Shown: in pieces, positions 37,755 to 55,890 of the stretch | Position numbering within the stretch: position 1 is the stretch's first letter | How the letters are laid out: each line of letters opens with the position of its first letter | Assembly (NCBI GenBank): GCA_003347645.1 | Contig: QDFX01000018.1 | Location: forward strand, 1-64,000 | Direction: 5' to 3' | Origin: Rhizobiaceae bacterium CPCC 101076 | GTDB lineage: Bacteria; Pseudomonadota; Alphaproteobacteria; Rhizobiales; Methylopilaceae | DNA length: 64,000 nucleotides | Program-made: the position numbers and the translations under genes | Notes under the pieces: generated by a model | The model's database searches: none | The model's input: only the letters and a program-made list of their open reading frames with translations | Told to the model about the DNA's origin: nothing

Positions 37755-38603
37755 TCACCTGTTACCCTTACCACCGCCCTTTCCGCCACCCTTGCCATCC
37801 TTGCCGTGGTCGCCGTGACCACCACCCTTGCCGTGGCCACCCTTGCCATGCTTGCCGCCATGACCGCCCTTGCCGGGACCGTCGTCATTGTCGCGACCGC
37901 CATAACCGCCCTTGCCGGGACCATCATGATCGCCGCGGCCGCCGCCATAGCCACCCTTGCCGGGACCGTCGTGGTCACCATGACCCCCGTGACCGCCACC
38001 GCCGTGGCCGCCGCCGTGGCCACCGCCATGTCCACCGCCGCCGTGACCTCCACCACCATGGCCGCCACCACCATGACCGCCGCCGCCATGGCCGCCACCG
38101 CCATGACCACCACCGCCATGACCACCGTCATGACCACCGCCGCCGTGACCTCCACCACCATGGCCGCCACCACCATGGCCGCCGCCACCGTGATGTCCGC
38201 CACCGCCGTGGCCTCCGCCATGACCATGACCATGACCATGACCATGGCCGTGGCCGTGGCCGTGGCCGTGGCCATGTCCGGGATCGGGATCTGGATCTGG
38301 ATCGGGATCTGGGTCAGGACCCGGACCGGGCCCCGGACCCGGACCTGGGCCCGGCCCAGGATCGCGGTCGTTATCGCCCCTCCGATCGCGGGCCGACGGA
38401 ATCGCGGCTGTGGGGAGCAGCGAGCAGCGCTCGAAGTTCAGCGGGGTGATGCGAGGATTTCCTCGCTCGTCATAGCATTCCCGAAAATTGGGATCGATCA
38501 CAGGGCCTGGGCCCGATCTCGTTTGAGCGGATGCACCTTGCATCATCAGCAATGAGATAGACGAACAGGCGCACAGAAGGACGATTTCTCTGGTAACGCG
38601 CAT
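37755..38603 (-). CDS. Exported Gly/His/Pro-rich repeat protein
   Basis: A 282-residue protein. A signal peptide (1-26, ending GASA|Q) is followed by a short ordinary segment with two cysteines (C43, C60). Then come four low-complexity blocks: Pro-Gly repeats (about 82-96), Asp-Pro (96-110), His-Gly (111-131), Gly3-4-His (131-205) and finally a basic part with several GPGKGG units. GGAG precedes the ATG at 38603. The His-rich tract suggests divalent metal binding (nickel, zinc or copper), but no family is recognised. Repeat number may vary between strains. Confidence 0.75.
   Translation of the reverse strand: MRVTREIVLLCACSSISLLMMQGASAQTRSGPGPVIDPNFRECYDERGNPRITPLNFERCSLLPTAAIPSARDRRGDNDRDPGPGPGPGPGPGPGPDPDPDPDPDPDPGHGHGHGHGHGHGHGHGHGHGGGHGGGGHHGGGGHGGGGHGGGGHGGGGHDGGHGGGGHGGGGHGGGGHGGGGHGGGGHGGGGHGGGHGGGHGGGGHGGHGDHDGPGKGGYGGGRGDHDGPGKGGYGGRDNDDGPGKGGHGGKHGKGGHGKGGGHGDHGKDGKGGGKGGGKGNR
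37770..38360. repeat. Tandem low-complexity DNA encoding the Gly/His/Pro tracts
   Basis: About 590 bp of short imperfect tandem repeats, such as units of CCATGACCACCACCG on the plus strand, ATGACC/GTGGCC hexamers (38219-38276) and GGATCT/GGACCC hexamers (38279-38350). They are coding repeats of the exported protein, not a CRISPR array: spacers are absent and unit length is 6-15 bases. Confidence 0.8.
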
Positions 38604-48501: not shown

Positions 48502-50919
48502 TCAGCTCCGAAGCGTCGCGCCGGTCGCCTTCGTCACCGCGGCGACGATCTTCTCGGCCACGGCCTCGATCTCGACGTCGGTCAAGGTCTTCTCACGCGG
48601 CTGCAGCGTGACCGCGACCGCGACGGACTTCTTGCCCTCGGGAACGCCCTGGCCTTCGTAGATGTCGAAGATGTCGGCACCGGTCACGAGCTTGCGGTCG
48701 ACGCCGAGCGCGGCCTTCAGCACGTCCGCCGCCTTCACGGAGCGGTCGGCAAGGAAGGCGAAGTCCCGGCTGACCGGCTGGAGGTCGACCTTTTCGAGCG
48801 CGGGCTTCGCCTTGGTCGGCTTGGCCTTCGGCTCGGGCAGATTATCGAGAACGATCTCGATGGCGACAAGCGGACCGTCGACCCCGAGTGTCTTCAGCAG
48901 CCGGGGGTGAAGCTCGCCGAAATGGCCGAACACGTTCTGCGGACCGAGTTGCAGCGTGCCCGAACGCCCCGGATGGAACCATTCGGGTGCCGTCTGAGCG
49001 ATCTGGACGCGATCGGCCGGAAGACCGAGCGCACCGAGCAAGGTCAGCGCATCGGCCTTGGCGTCGAACACGTCGACCGTCTCGGGCTTGGCCGACCAGT
49101 GACGGCCGGAGCCCACGGGCTTTGCCGAGGCACGGCGGAGCACGGTCGCGGCCATGCGCTGGTCTTTCGGACCGGCACCCAGGAATATCTGGCCGACTTC
49201 GAACAATGCGGAATCGGCGAAGCCGCGATCGGCGTTCTTCTGGGCGGAGGCGATAAGGCCCGGCAGCAGGCTTGGACGCATGTCGGAAAGGTCGGAGGCG
49301 ATCGGATTGGCGAGCGCAAGCTCCGGCGCGCCGCCACCGAATGCATCGGCCTGCGCCTTCGAGACGAACGACCAGGTGACGGCCTCGACGAGACCACGCG
49401 CAGCAAGCGTTCGGCGGGCGGTGCGGACACGCTTCTGCAGCGGTGTCAGGACCGGACGGCTGACGCTTTCGATCTTCGGCAGCGGAACCGAGTGCACACG
49501 GTCGAGGCCAAGAATGCGGACGACCTCTTCGACGAGATCGGCCTTGCCGTGCACGTCCGGACGCCAGCTCGGCGCCGCGACGCGGACGACTTCGCCCGAA
49601 CCGACCAGCGAGAAGCCGAGCGCCTGGAGGACGAGCTTCTGTTCGACGGCCGGCGCCTTGAGGCCAGTCAGGCGCTCCACTTCGTGGAACGGAAATTCGA
49701 TCGCGTGGCGGTCGTCCGGGACTTCGCCGACGACGAAGACCTCGGAGGCCTCGCCGCCGCAAAGATCGAGGATCAGTTTCGTTGCGAGTTCGAGGCCGGG
49801 AATGGTGAAGACCGGATCGACGCCGCGTTCGAAGCGATGGCGGGCGTCAGAATGGATCGACAGCCGACGGCCGGTCTGGGCGATGTTGAGCGGATCCCAG
49901 AGCGCGCTCTCGATCAGGACGTCGACCGTCTCTTCGGTGCAGCCCGTGGCCTCACCGCCCATGATGCCGGCCATGCTCTCAGGGCCGTGCTCGTCGGCGA
50001 TGACGACGATGTTCGGATCGAGATTGTAGGTCTTGCCGTCGAGCGCTAGCAGCGTCTCGCCGTCCTTCGCGCGGCGAACGGTGAGGTTGCCCTTCACCTT
50101 GGCGGCGTCGAAGACGTGCAGCGGGCGTCCACGGTCGATCGTCAGCAGGTTGGTGATGTCGACCAGCGTGTTGATGGGCCGGAGGCCGATCGCGCGGAGC
50201 TTCTTCTGCAACCAGTCCGGCGACGGGTCGTTCCTGACGCCGCGCACCATGCGCAGGCCGAACATCGGGCAGAGCTTCGGATCGTCGAGATCGAGTACGA
50301 CCTTGACCGGACTCGGATAGGAGCCGCGCACCGGCTGGACCATTTTCGGCGTGGTCAGGACACCCAGTTCCGTCGCGGCGAGGTCGCGGGCGATGCCCGA
50401 TACGCTGAGGCAATCCGGACGGTTCGGCGTCACCGCGATCTCGATCACCGGATCGTCGAGGCCGAGCAGCGGCGCGAACGGCTGGCCGATCGGTGTATCG
50501 GCGGCGAGATCGATGATGCCGTTGTGCTCGTTGGAGAGCCCCATCTCGCGCTCGGACACCATCATGCCCTGCGAGGCCTGTCCACGGATCTCGCCAGCCT
50601 TGAGGGCGACGCCCGTACCGGGCGGTACGGTGCCTTCCCTGGCGAACACGCCGACCATGCCGGCGCGTGCGTTCGGGGCGCCGCAGACGACCTGCATCAG
50701 CTTGCCGTCGCCGGCATCGACCTTGAGCACTCGGAGCTTATCGGCATTCGGATGCTGAGCCGCCTCGACCACCTTGGCGGTGACGAAGGGCGCGAGCGCC
50801 TTGGCGCGATCCTCGACCGCCTCGACCTCGAGGCCGACCTTGGTCAGCGTCTCGGTAACCTGATCGAGGGTCGCCGTGGTGTCGAGATGCTCCTTGAGCC
50901 AGGACAAGGTGAACTTCAT
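48502..50919 (-). CDS. pheT: Phenylalanine-tRNA ligase beta subunit
   Basis: An 805-residue beta subunit of the heterotetrameric PheRS. The N-terminus MKFTLSWLKEHLDT is canonical. The EMAP/tRNA-binding domain (about 40-150) has HPNADKLRVLKVDAGDG. B3/B4 editing and B5 domains follow (GIMGGEATGCTEET, HSDARHRFERGVD), and a C-terminal anticodon-binding FDX domain ends the chain (PVSRDFAFLADRSV). I chose the ATG at 50919. It overlaps the stop of the inserted DUF559 gene (ATGA), so pheT translation is coupled to that gene rather than to pheS. Confidence 0.96.
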   Translation of the reverse strand: MKFTLSWLKEHLDTTATLDQVTETLTKVGLEVEAVEDRAKALAPFVTAKVVEAAQHPNADKLRVLKVDAGDGKLMQVVCGAPNARAGMVGVFAREGTVPPGTGVALKAGEIRGQASQGMMVSEREMGLSNEHNGIIDLAADTPIGQPFAPLLGLDDPVIEIAVTPNRPDCLSVSGIARDLAATELGVLTTPKMVQPVRGSYPSPVKVVLDLDDPKLCPMFGLRMVRGVRNDPSPDWLQKKLRAIGLRPINTLVDITNLLTIDRGRPLHVFDAAKVKGNLTVRRAKDGETLLALDGKTYNLDPNIVVIADEHGPESMAGIMGGEATGCTEETVDVLIESALWDPLNIAQTGRRLSIHSDARHRFERGVDPVFTIPGLELATKLILDLCGGEASEVFVVGEVPDDRHAIEFPFHEVERLTGLKAPAVEQKLVLQALGFSLVGSGEVVRVAAPSWRPDVHGKADLVEEVVRILGLDRVHSVPLPKIESVSRPVLTPLQKRVRTARRTLAARGLVEAVTWSFVSKAQADAFGGGAPELALANPIASDLSDMRPSLLPGLIASAQKNADRGFADSALFEVGQIFLGAGPKDQRMAATVLRRASAKPVGSGRHWSAKPETVDVFDAKADALTLLGALGLPADRVQIAQTAPEWFHPGRSGTLQLGPQNVFGHFGELHPRLLKTLGVDGPLVAIEIVLDNLPEPKAKPTKAKPALEKVDLQPVSRDFAFLADRSVKAADVLKAALGVDRKLVTGADIFDIYEGQGVPEGKKSVAVAVTLQPREKTLTDVEIEAVAEKIVAAVTKATGATLRS

Positions 50920-51380
50920 GACTGATGATCCGGCTCGGAATCGGAGGAAATGTGCGGCGACCACTCCTCCCCCCCTGAGGGGGAGGTCGAGTCGCCGAAG
51001 GCGAACCGGGAGGGGGGTACCCCACGCACGGCGACCATGATCGCTTCCAGCACGCCATCCATGTTCGAGAAAATATCCGAGTTCCAAATCCGCAGGACGT
51101 GATAGCCAAGGCGGCTCAACTCCGCGTCTCGGATTGCATCGCGTGCGGCGTGTGCGTCCTCCGCATGCTGTCCGCCATCAAGCTCAATGACGAGGCGATG
51201 CTCGTGACAGACGAAATCGGCGATGTAGGCACCGATTGGAGTCTGGCGACGGAAAGACAGGCCGTCGAGACGGTGCGCGCGCAGTCGAAACCAGAGCTTC
51301 CGCTCAGCATCCGTCATGTCGCGGCGTAAGCGCTTCGCCGAGGAGCGCAGGCGGGCGGGGACAGAACGATGCGTCGGCAT
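50916..51380 (-). CDS. DUF559 endonuclease-like protein between pheS and pheT
   Basis: A 154-residue protein of the DUF559 family (PD-(D/E)XK fold, related to Vsr-type very-short-patch endonucleases). LRRDMTDAERKLWFRLRAHR, then FRRQTPIGAYIADFVC and VIELDGGQHAE with its acidic cluster, and GYHVLRIWNSDI at the end of the core are typical, so the nuclease site looks intact. The last 35 residues or so (from GVPPSRFAFGDS) are encoded by a palindromic repeat. A matching inverted copy directly upstream of the ATG supplies a G-rich Shine-Dalgarno-like run. Its stop overlaps the pheT start. Function unknown. Confidence 0.85.
   Translation of the reverse strand: MPTHRSVPARLRSSAKRLRRDMTDAERKLWFRLRAHRLDGLSFRRQTPIGAYIADFVCHEHRLVIELDGGQHAEDAHAARDAIRDAELSRLGYHVLRIWNSDIFSNMDGVLEAIMVAVRGVPPSRFAFGDSTSPSGGEEWSPHISSDSEPDHQS
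50965..51023 (-). repeat. Palindromic repeat, pheT-side copy
   Basis: Read on the minus strand this copy begins ACCCCCCTCCCGG, continues with a variable stem (TTCGCCTTCGGCGA) and ends in a hairpin CCTCCCCCTC/AGGGGGGGAGG. It lies in the 3' coding end of the DUF559 gene and is the inverted partner of the copy at 51387-51442. Confidence 0.75.
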
Positions 51381-51386
51381 GCTTGG

Positions 51387-51442
51387 CACCCCCCTCCCGG
51401 TCGCGCTCCGCGCGCTCGGCCTCCCCCTCGCGGGGGGAGGCG
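51387..51442 (+). repeat. Palindromic repeat, pheS-side copy
   Basis: Read on the plus strand it begins ACCCCCCTCCCGG, has a variable stem (TCGCGCTCCGCGCGCT) and ends in the hairpin CCTCCCCCTC/CGGGGGGAGG. It starts seven bases outside the DUF559 ATG. Relative to the gene, both copies have the same end facing inwards, like terminal inverted repeats. Confidence 0.75.
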
Positions 51443-51463
51443 AAAGGCGCGGCATCTCCCCGT

Positions 51464-52546
51464 TCACGAGCTCAGCCCTCCGATCAGGCCCGGCAGATCG
51501 AGCGGACGGAAACCGTAATGCTGCAGCCAGCGCTGGTCGGCCTCGAAGAAGGCGCGCAGGTCCGGCATGCCGTATTTCAGCATGGCGACGCGATCGATGC
51601 CCATGCCCCAGGCAAAGCCCTGCCACTCGTCGGGATCGAGCCCGCAATTCCTGAGTACGTTCGGGTGGACCATTCCGCAGCCGAGGATTTCCAGCCAGTC
51701 GTCGCCCTCGCCGAAGCGGATTTCGGACCCCTGGCGCGAGCAGCGGATGTCGACCTCCATCGACGGCTCGGTGAACGGGAAAAAGCTCGGACGCATCCGC
51801 ATCTCGACCTTCGGCACTTCGAAGAAGGCCTTGCAGAACTCTTCGAGGATCCACTTCAGGTGGCCCATATGGGCCTGCTTGTCGATCACCAGCCCCTCGA
51901 CCTGATGGAACATCGGGGTGTGGGTCTGATCGGAATCGTTGCGATAGGTGCGGCCAGGGCAGATGACCCGGATCGGCGGCTCCTGGCTCCGCATGGTGCG
52001 GATCTGCACGGGCGAGGTGTGGGTGCGCAGCACCTTGCGCTCGCCGTTCTCGTCGGGCGCGAAGAAGAAGGTGTCGTGCATCTCGCGCGCGGGATGGCCG
52101 ACCGGGAAGTTCAGCGCCGTGAAATTATGCTCGTCGTCCTCGACGTCCGGGCCTTCGGCGACCGAGAAGCCGAGATCGGCGAAGATCGCGACGATTTCCT
52201 CGGTGACCTGGCTGACCGGATGGATGCGGCCGATGTCGATGCCGTTGGGGCGGACCGGAAGCGTGACATCGACGGCCTCGGAGGCGAGGCGCGCATCGAG
52301 CGCGGCCGAAGCAAGAGCCTCCTTGCGGTCGCCGAGCGCCGACTGGACACGGTCACGCAAGCCGTTGATGGCCGGGCCGAACGTCTTGCGTTCGTCGGGC
52401 GACATCTTGCCGAGCTGGCCGAGCTGTTCGGAGATGACGCCCTTCTTGCCGAGGGCGGACACGCGGACGGTTTCGAGTGCCGTCTCGTCGGAAGCCGAGG
52501 CGATCTCGGCGAGAATCTTGGATTCGAGCTCGTTCAGGTCGCTCAT
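51464..52546 (-). CDS. pheS: Phenylalanine-tRNA ligase alpha subunit
   Basis: The 360-residue catalytic alpha subunit of PheRS. The N-terminal coiled coil (1-85) precedes the class II core. Motif 2 is visible in [28 protein letters not shown], with [10 protein letters not shown] and the motif 3 [17 protein letters not shown] after it. I chose the ATG at 52546. The frame is open further upstream. It ends 84 bases before the DUF559 gene, so the usual tight pheS-pheT junction is interrupted here. Confidence 0.96.
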
Positions 52547-52568
52547 ATGGCGAATTTTCCGGTGCGTC

Positions 52569-52634
52569 GCCCTCCGGCTCGACCGGAGGGCCCATCGAGA
52601 GATCGATATAGATGCTCCGGTCAAGCCGGAGCAT
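52569..52634. repeat. Two hairpin repeats between rplT and pheS
   Basis: CCCTCCGG-CTCGA-CCGGAGGG lies at about 52569-52589, and ATGCTCCGG-TCAAG-CCGGAGCAT at 52612-52634. The second resembles a hairpin unit widespread in Rhizobiales intergenic DNA. They occupy most of the 137-bp gap. Confidence 0.6.
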
Positions 52635-55756: not shown

Positions 55757-55890
55757 CCCCTCTCCTGCGAAGCGGGAGAGGGTCGAGTGCGTGTCAACGC
55801 ACCGGGGTGAGGGGCCAGCACGACGCTCATTGCAATCCTGCCCTCACCCGCTCGCTTCGCGAGTCGACCTCTCCCGTAAACGGGAGAGGC
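55757..55890. repeat. Composite hairpin repeat (copy 3 plus a mirror half)
   Basis: The left part (55757-55782) has CCTCTCCTGCGAAGCGGGAGAGG. The right part has CTCACCCGCTCGCTTCGCGAG and then a 9-bp hairpin, CCTCTCCCG-TAAA-CGGGAGAGG (55868-55889). The two outer hairpins are related, and GGGGTGAGG/CCTCACCC in the middle pair as well, so the whole block may fold. It fills the gap between two convergent genes. Confidence 0.65.

Follow-up and report, generated by a model that had tools for sequence, protein, structure and literature searches.

A small nuclease gene lies between two essential genes, pheS and pheT, in Rhizobiaceae bacterium CPCC 101076 and is framed by two DNA hairpin repeats, which raises the question of whether the repeats belong with the nuclease and, if so, how widely the pairing occurs. 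We analyzed a 64,000-nt stretch (positions 1 to 64,000 of contig QDFX01000018.1, assembly GCA_003347645.1; hereafter, the window). The first-pass annotation, made from sequence alone, had described two inverted palindromic copies around a DUF559 gene inserted between pheS and pheT, and this observation was confirmed. The two arms (50966-51021 and 51385-51440) are 56 nt long and 77% complementary, forming the longest inverted pair listed for the 64-kb window, and both carry the gene-facing ACCCCCCTCCCGG and an outer CCTCCCCC hairpin. The DUF559 open reading frame (51380-50916, minus strand) encodes 154 aa and matches the Pfam profile PF04480 with an E-value of 1.5e-40, scoring 137.9 bits against a gathering score of 20.6. 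A GGGAGGGGGG run ends 8 nt before its ATG, whereas its last ~34 codons run through the other repeat to a stop TGA that overlaps the pheT ATG (ATGA).

We next resolved the architecture of the repeats. The unit at the 3′ side of the gene (50966-51017, plus strand) consists of hairpin 1 (50966-50986), hairpin 2 (50992-51004), and a purine tail, GGGAGGGGGG (about 51008-51017), while the unit at the 5′ side (51389-51440, minus strand) consists of hairpin 1 (51420-51440), hairpin 2 (51402-51414), and a purine tail (about 51389-51398) that also lies at Shine-Dalgarno distance from the DUF559 ATG. Each gene-facing tail mirrors the purine arm of its hairpin 1, with no mismatch over the 7 nt scored in either unit, which is the layout of a fold-back purine triplex. 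To assess whether such units could arise by chance, we scanned 464 kb of this genome and three Markov-2 null sequences of it; the nulls gave 0, 0, and 0 units, compared with 20 observed, of which 2 (in L198) look spurious. The units are thus not a product of chance. An Rfam search of positions 50800-51600 returned no match at E-values up to 1.

The first-pass annotation had proposed comparing pheS–pheT junctions with and without the insertion. pheT (48502-50919, minus strand; start MKFTLSWL at 50919) and pheS (51464-52600, minus strand; start approximate) are separated by a 544-nt gap (50920-51463), whereas in three same-genus genomes (G001, G002, and G003) the two genes overlap by 4 nt, a difference of 548 nt whose edges can be placed to within the shared TGA. 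A pheS protein query matched in 30 of 30 genomes. DUF559 genes of two families of bacteria sit at this same junction (loci L057 and L074). This recurrence, together with a predicted structure (pLDDT 84.3) whose best match after 3hrl (Z 15.8) is the catalytic domain of the homing endonuclease I-Bth0305I (Z 12.8), is compatible with a free-standing homing endonuclease that settled between repeat copies because they offer homology for repair, the repeats being its landing pads and not its ends. However, the empty sites read at pheS–pheT (G001–G003) and at a second locus, L046 (genomes G013 and G009), hold no unit, and the insertion sites of the elements differ; cleavage of an empty site was not assayed, and we regard this reading as improbable.

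Next, we asked whether the bracketing extends to other DUF559 genes, another comparison that had been suggested in advance. From relatives, 60 match rows were reduced to 53 loci by merging three pairs of rows and leaving out four weak or edge rows (L035, L036, one G011 fragment, and G049); a second set comprised 80 loci chosen by protein similarity, one of which lacked enough flank. Strict facing units were found on both sides of 33 of 53 and 42 of 80 genes, respectively; L021 and L106 are one gene present in both sets, and without L106 the second count is 41 of 79. No facing unit was found by the strict scan beside 8 of 53 and 11 of 80 genes. Among controls, 0 of 14 tyrosine (Y1_Tnp) transposase genes had a unit on any side, 0 of 29 pheS genes were bracketed and these showed one unit-bearing side in total, both results holding when approximate coordinates near contig ends were replaced by exact ones, and random windows were bracketed in 0 of 4000 and 1 of 4000 cases. 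Thus, although the units are common in some of these genomes, coincidental flanking by abundant intergenic palindromes is refuted by the contrast between 1 of 8,000 random windows and 74 of 132 distinct DUF559 loci. The two translation remarks of the first-pass annotation also generalize in the protein-chosen set: where a strict 3′-side unit exists, the ORF stop lies beyond the start of that unit in 44 of 54 loci, and the 5′-side tail ends 1-13 nt before the first in-frame start codon in 30 of the 47 loci where a distance could be taken. 

To examine what is conserved in the units, we compared arms with tails. The mirror alignment beat the direct alignment 31:0 of 51 (set 1) and 57:5 of 87 (set 2), the rest being tied; arm G meets tail G in 721 of 731 cases, and arm A meets A or T in 179 of 187, as is compatible with G.GC, A.AT, and T.AT triplets. 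A G-quadruplex was rejected as the general reason for the purine tail, since that motif is present in only 76 of 214 ends and does not predict the mirrored A positions. Left and right unit classes were identical in 56 of 93 loci (shuffled mean 10.4, maximum 22 in 2000 shuffles). Unit class also follows the DUF559 tree, requiring 27 changes against 33.7 after shuffling (0 of 200 shuffles as low; 50 of 55 labeled proteins after removal of near copies); this association is real, although the domain is short and most forks are weak.

These data bear on the possibility that an unidentified transposase moves facing unit pairs, with DUF559 genes as frequent cargo. Units outlive DUF559 genes in some genomes, as this would allow. 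Nevertheless, the same gene family lies between facing units in Proteobacteria and in contigs labeled Omnitrophota and Chloroflexi (labels of metagenome bins), unit class follows the nuclease tree, and a PF01797 search found no Y1 transposase in the own genome (matches in 10 of 61 genomes), which also led us to reject a RAYT as the mover. Other gene families between facing units were not surveyed, and we consider the passenger reading improbable. Membership in a defense system was likewise rejected, as PADLOC hits were short stretches matching large proteins (Hhe, DpdF, PDC-S37) and one restriction enzyme (E-values 2.6e-7 to 3e-3). Plasmid carriage of the window element was also rejected, with two weak matches covering about 30%.

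We then searched for units away from DUF559 genes. The first-pass annotation had named repeats occurring mostly away from such genes as grounds for dismissing the pairing. This is literally true, since most units are dispersed, but it does not make the pairing coincidental given the random-window frequency, and the facing gene-less pairs look like non-autonomous derivatives. Four such pairs were found in 464 kb. One mini-element in the window (55758-55889) comprises two facing units with a 30-nt spacer and belongs to a ~134-bp family with at least 17 further copies at 85-93% identity over nearly the whole query copy. In hairpin 2, whole-arm swaps were seen, with 5 of 6 pairs changed on both sides and no one-sided change; an alignment of the family used 10 of the 17 usable copies, those of nearly equal length. 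The element at L046 has an exact empty site in G013 and G009, is also absent in G004, and is occupied in G006 and G014. Away from the DUF559 site, however, the shorter alleles at polymorphic unit pairs are not exact empty sites, and 8 of the 12 indels listed between G008 and G013 hold no unit. Units persist without DUF559 in G013 (20) and G009 (9), and G012 holds 42 units of a class not seen beside its DUF559 genes; per-genome counts rest on at most 15 scored candidate stretches for the former two, and on at most 40 for the family copies and the L046 comparison, and are lower bounds. We also looked for the target duplication that had been named as a comparison to make. Both edges at pheS–pheT carry TGA (RTGA being a possible duplication), yet 17 mini-element copies (an eighteenth, L223, was not included) showed no direct repeat flush with the hairpins (mean 0.0 against 0.48 shuffled). 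A clean target duplication is therefore not supported, and the two observations together leave it undecided whether a duplication of fixed length exists. By contrast, terminal inverted repeats with dispersed shorter relatives, as in insertion sequences and MITEs, are present.

The unit belongs with the BoxC/PIT/TM repeats of E. coli, and we examined the E. coli DUF559 gene ycjD. The unit beside ycjD is TM no. 9 of Table 1 in PMC4666352. In an even sample of E. coli, ycjD-positive chromosomes (n = 37) hold a median of 22 copies and ycjD-negative ones (n = 22) 7.5 (Mann-Whitney p = 2.4e-9; one of 60 rows, a 231-kb record, was not counted). This contrast is confounded by phylogeny, for which no correction was made, and ycjD-negative chromosomes hold up to 21 copies. 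Moreover, ycjD has one degenerate unit at its 3′ end and a palindrome of another kind at its 5′ end, and not a clean bracket. A higher copy number with ycjD is also predicted if DUF559 is a housekeeping repair nuclease, kept because it removes or resolves triplex or hairpin obstacles created by the repeats, with the flanking units as feedback or accumulated copies and the repeats spreading by another route. The Vsr fold fits this view, as does C. crescentus VsrA, which is induced in the DNA damage response and needed for the SOS response of cells lacking its cognate methylation (PMC12907096); that study, the only functional one we saw, reads a DUF559 protein as mismatch repair and gave no hit for palindromes. 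This view is unlikely, as it does not explain the matched inverted bracketing, the insert at pheS–pheT, or mini-elements with the same facing layout.

Taken together, we favor, with moderate confidence, the reading that the window holds the full-size, gene-carrying form of a dispersed palindromic element and that DUF559 is the missing partner nuclease of the repeats, in a RAYT/REPIN-like arrangement with an unrelated enzyme. In this view, each end is a pyrimidine arm, loop, purine arm, link or second hairpin, and a purine tail that can fold back as a third strand; when the strand is single, during replication, transcription, or repair, the unit would fold into a hairpin-triplex that the cognate DUF559 protein recognizes and nicks, letting unit pairs, with or without the gene, be copied or moved to new intergenic sites. 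Our analysis demonstrates the bracketing, the mirror rule, the dispersed gene-less pairs, the presence/absence differences between relatives, the left-right class matching, and the association of unit class with the nuclease tree; triplex folding of the E. coli single strand was shown in vitro by others, whereas recognition and nicking by DUF559 and its role in copying are our inference, and nothing here shows DUF559 touching these repeats. The interpretation in the first-pass annotation, of a small mobile or homing-type element carrying its own translation signals or a domesticated regulator of pheT, is thus partly supported: the insertion, the recurrent repeats at both ends, and the translation signals hold, a clean target duplication does not find support, and regulation of pheT was not examined. 

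More tentatively, and with less than even likelihood, these elements may constitute a separate class of bacterial mobile element that moves by a Vsr-fold nuclease acting on single-stranded DNA folded into purine-motif triplexes, with DUF559 genes as autonomous members and the BoxC/PIT/TM repeats of E. coli and hundreds of other genomes as their non-autonomous offspring; the mirror tail would be a conserved part of the substrate and the whole-arm swaps in hairpin 2 a footprint of copying through a hairpin intermediate. BoxC/PIT/TM repeats are described in print without a function or a mobility gene, and the 2015 study states that mobility activities were never found near them and that their origin remains unclear (PMC4666352). 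A partner nuclease bracketed by the same motif, with a degenerate case in E. coli K-12, makes that question accessible to bench experiment; it would also give a large family of nucleases of unknown function a natural DNA substrate and add a second, unrelated enzyme to the REP/RAYT way of populating genomes with hairpins. We saw no paper joining DUF559 or YcjD to such repeats in the open-licence literature searched, for most of which only titles and the starts of abstracts were seen.

Finally, we compared the element with its closest known systems. With YcjD/DUF559, Vsr, and I-Bth0305I nucleases (PMC1189080; PDB 3hrl, 1cw0, 3r3p), the window protein shares the predicted PD-(D/E)XK/Vsr fold (1cw0: Z 11.1, rmsd 2.5, 104 aligned), and in A3, residues R19, T23, E26, D55, E66, D68, and H72 are among the invariant ones; nicking of T:G mismatches, as by Vsr, was not measured, and the passages of PMC1189080 that we saw name no repeat partner for YcjD. 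RAYT/REP/REPIN and TIRYT systems (PMC3733652, PMC3116915) likewise comprise a nuclease gene bracketed by inverted palindromic repeats with dispersed gene-less repeat pairs. Some TIRYT repeats share GGGGWSAS, which GGGGTGAG would fit, an untested lead, but here the enzyme is PD-(D/E)XK and not an HUH tyrosine transposase, the unit sequences read by eye carry no GTAG or CGTC tag, and a mirror tail is present. With the BoxC/PIT/TM repeats, whose E. coli type is reported in 262 proteobacterial genomes (PMC4666352), the units share a pyrimidine stem, loop, purine stem, link, and second purine stem in antiparallel (mirror) orientation, and inverted pairs occur in both. The E. coli oligonucleotide is reported to fold as a triplex by CD and NMR, although DMS probing gave no stable triplex in vivo; folding of the window units was not assayed. 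The second loop is 3 nt in the E. coli TM, and that study searched loops of 1-6 nt and reported no mobility genes or gene-class link around the repeats; links of 2-3 nt occur in 51 of our 106 well-aligned units, but both window units have 22 nt with a hairpin between arm and tail, the link is often 13-37 nt with a second hairpin, and the repeats bracket DUF559 genes.

We first examined whether the first-pass annotation, which described a DUF559 nuclease gene bracketed by inverted palindromic repeats between pheS and pheT, holds at the sequence level. The observation held: the two arms, at 50966-51021 and 51385-51440, are 77% complementary and form the longest inverted pair listed for the window, and between them, on the minus strand, lies a 154-aa DUF559 ORF at 51380-50916. 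The same repeat analysis also listed dense degenerate direct repeats at 37785-38255 (CCGCCATGACC-like, mostly in 15-nt steps), possibly a repetitive coding stretch. As pheS-pheT junctions with and without the insert had been proposed beforehand as a check, we compared the locus across relatives. In three same-genus genomes (G001, G002, and G003), pheS and pheT overlap by 4 nt at GTGA, whereas the genome studied here has a gap of 544 nt, with TGA present at both edges. So the unit is most simply an insertion. In a relative of another family (G025; locus L022/L074), a different DUF559 gene lies at the same junction, within a pheS-pheT gap of 628 nt, with a hairpin pair downstream and no unit found upstream. 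The junction also holds other inserts of 127-179 nt in seven further genomes (G008, G009, G013, G004, G006, G015, and G012; loci L062-L066, L069, and L071). Some of these carry GTCATCCCGG-type palindromes that resemble CGTC REPs (PMC3733652), although this resemblance was not tested, and pheS-pheT thus looks like a permissive landing site.

Next, we asked whether the repeats accompany DUF559 genes elsewhere, first within the same genome, a search that the first-pass annotation had suggested. Six DUF559 loci exist in this 3.73-Mb genome (two match rows are one broken gene), of which four have a facing unit on both sides, one (L004) on one side, and one (L006) on none. DUF559 occurs in 31 of 61 genomes searched, giving 60 match rows, from which 53 loci were examined. 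Comparison of the left flank with the reverse-complemented right flank gave an average score of 28.9 for the same gene and 15.0 for mismatched genes. A second set of 80 loci, chosen by protein similarity alone from one-genome-per-species contigs with varied labels, gave 29.3 against 14.8, with 46 of 79 own pairs above the 95th and 28 above the 99th percentile of 6,241 mismatched pairs. With a strict unit definition, both sides were occupied in 33 of 53 and 42 of 80 loci, one side in 12 and 27, and neither in 8 and 11, respectively; one gene is in both sets, and without it the second set has 41 of 79. In the controls, tyrosine transposase genes had a unit on any side in 0 of 14 cases, pheS had 1 occupied side in 29 genes, and random windows were bracketed in 0 of 4,000 cases in the genome studied here and in 1 of 4,000 in G008, G013, and G009. 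The two units of one gene share their stem class in 56 of 93 loci, against at most 22 in 2,000 shuffles. Unit classes also cluster on the DUF559 tree (27 changes against 33.7; 0 of 200 shuffles), although the tree has weak forks and taxonomy may contribute. Outside Proteobacteria, both sides were occupied in contigs labelled Omnitrophota (L120 and L142) and Chloroflexi (L129), and one side in a contig labelled Nitrospira (L166); in the Gastranaerophilales contig (L139), the strict scan found none, although the flank comparison showed a matched 38-nt inverted repeat. The best inverted repeat around the DUF559 gene of Bradyrhizobium glycinis (L101) is a different palindrome (CGGATTGCTC...GAGCAATCCG), so more than one repeat type may pair with the family. 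One locus of G012 (L049; G012:C1:199915-200722) contains two DUF559 genes in tandem, 490 nt apart start to start, with equal scores.

We then analyzed the anatomy of the units. Reading toward the gene, a unit consists of a C/T-only arm, a loop, a G/A-only arm, a link, and a purine tail. Among 106 well-aligned units, the link is 2-3 nt in 51, 5 nt in one, and 13-37 nt in 54, and many of the long links hold a second hairpin, as in the window. The tail is the mirror of the purine arm and not a direct copy of it: mirror beat direct 31 to 0 (of 51) in the first set and 57 to 5 (of 87) in the second, with the rest tied, and arm shuffles never reached the observed mean (0 of 200 and, in a further test, 0 of 1,000). 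In the 106 units, arm G faces tail G in 721 of 731 instances, and arm A faces A (115), T (64), C (6), or G (2). These 106 are those of 134 asymmetric ends that passed a score cut, so the match rate is partly selected, but the cut did not favor T over C. G on G-C, and A or T on A-T, are the triplets of the antiparallel purine motif, so the rule is what a fold-back triplex needs. One unit class, at L053 (G030) and L049, seems to include in its mirror symmetry a C next to the purine run (GCGGGGGAGG / GGAGGGGGCG in L053), which purine triplets do not explain. A G-quadruplex motif is present in only 76 of 214 ends. In a family of ~134-bp gene-less pairs of this genome, the second hairpin carries different stems in copies that are otherwise about 92% alike; over 10 copies, 98.3% of cells were paired, with 20 cells changed on both sides and none on one side only (0 of 500 shuffles). 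This points to selection on structure and hints at arm replacement through a hairpin intermediate, which is an inference.

Gene-less forms are dispersed in the genome. In 464 kb (the window plus twenty 20-kb samples), the strict scan identified 20 units, 2 of which (in the sample L198) look spurious, against 0 in each of three Markov-2 nulls. Apart from the DUF559 element, four facing pairs have spacers of 27-115 nt in place of the gene, and the only back-to-back pair is the spurious one, although back-to-back pairs do occur in relatives. One family of facing pairs gave 42 matches, of which 17 besides the query share 85-93% identity over nearly its whole length. In 160 kb of synteny, G008 (four DUF559 match rows) has 11 strict units and G013 (none) has 4; in 80 kb, G009 (none) has 0. 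Of 12 indels listed between G008 and G013, three hold facing pairs, one an unrelated hairpin, and eight no unit; of 7 between G008 and G009, two hold facing pairs and one a single strict unit. A comparison of empty and occupied sites for target duplication had also been proposed beforehand as a check, and no fixed target duplication was found, RTGA being seen at one site only. The DUF559 element L046 is absent at an exact empty site in G013 and G009 and is absent in G004, whereas G006 and G014 hold it at the same site, so it is not always young. At the other polymorphic places, the shorter allele keeps 8-38 unaligned nt. The proposal of the first-pass annotation that the unit may be a small mobile or homing-type element is partly supported.

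To determine whether unit number follows DUF559, we counted one unit class across the 61 genomes. This class is found in 18 of 31 genomes with DUF559 and in 6 of 30 without (324 against 44 copies, both lower bounds; Fisher p = 0.004). Exceptions are plain: at least 42 units of a class that we did not see beside its DUF559 genes occur in G012, G013 has at least 20 units with no DUF559, and G007 and G010 have none of this class and carry DUF559 with another class.

The nearest NCBIfam model of the window protein is PRK09767, which is annotated as a DUF559 protein and covers YcjD; the match falls below its cut-off (98.7 of 218 bits). In E. coli MG1655, a unit lies 168 bp from the ycjD stop. This place is TM no. 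9 in Table 1 of Holder et al. 2015 (PMC4666352), in which the motif, earlier called BoxC or PIT, folds as a triplex in vitro by CD and NMR, shows no stable triplex in vivo, has no link to neighboring gene classes, and "never" has mobility functions nearby. ycjD with its unit is present in 3,364 of 5,426 E. coli genomes (at least 80% of the query). In an even 60-row sample, 37 ycjD+ chromosomes carry 13-31 places (median 22) and 22 ycjD- chromosomes carry 1-21 (median 7.5; p = 2.4e-9), although the sample is not corrected for phylogeny and the ycjD+ count includes the place at ycjD itself. In E. coli, ycjD is not cleanly bracketed, which fits a decayed element or counts against the model; at its 5' side in E. 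coli K-12 (L263:3260-3302), a long near-perfect palindrome (CACCTCATTCTGACAA...TTGTCAGAATGAGGTG) sits at the ycjD start and is not a triplex-type unit.

The predicted structure of the window protein (pLDDT 84.3) matches 3hrl (a solved close relative, 44% identical), the catalytic domain of the homing endonuclease I-Bth0305I, and Vsr (Z 15.8, 12.8, and 11.1, respectively). Fold matches of this model (m005418d9c6c8) to mitochondrial ribosome subunits of Toxoplasma and Tetrahymena (Z 8.6-10.1) possibly reflect nuclease-like domains in mitoribosomal proteins. The unit-encoded C-terminus, from about residue 121, is of low confidence. R19, T23, E26, W30, R45, Q46, D55, E66, D68, G69, H72, R84, R97, and N100 are among the residues invariant in 47 sequences. 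A competing view comes from the one functional study of a DUF559 protein that we encountered, on C. crescentus VsrA (PMC12907096), which proposes mismatch repair; a text search of that paper found no "palindrom".

Taken together, we favor the interpretation that DUF559 is the partner nuclease of these triplex-type repeats, acting when the strand is single, in the manner of RAYT on REPs, with gene-less pairs as its offspring. Our data show the association, the structure rule, the polymorphism, and the matching of classes, whereas binding, nicking, and copying by the nuclease are inferred. The repeat and the nuclease are each already known, and movement by DUF559 is unproven; if such activity were established, the arrangement would constitute a separate class. 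It is not a member of the RAYT/REPIN family, since both the enzyme and the tag tests fail, but it may work like one.
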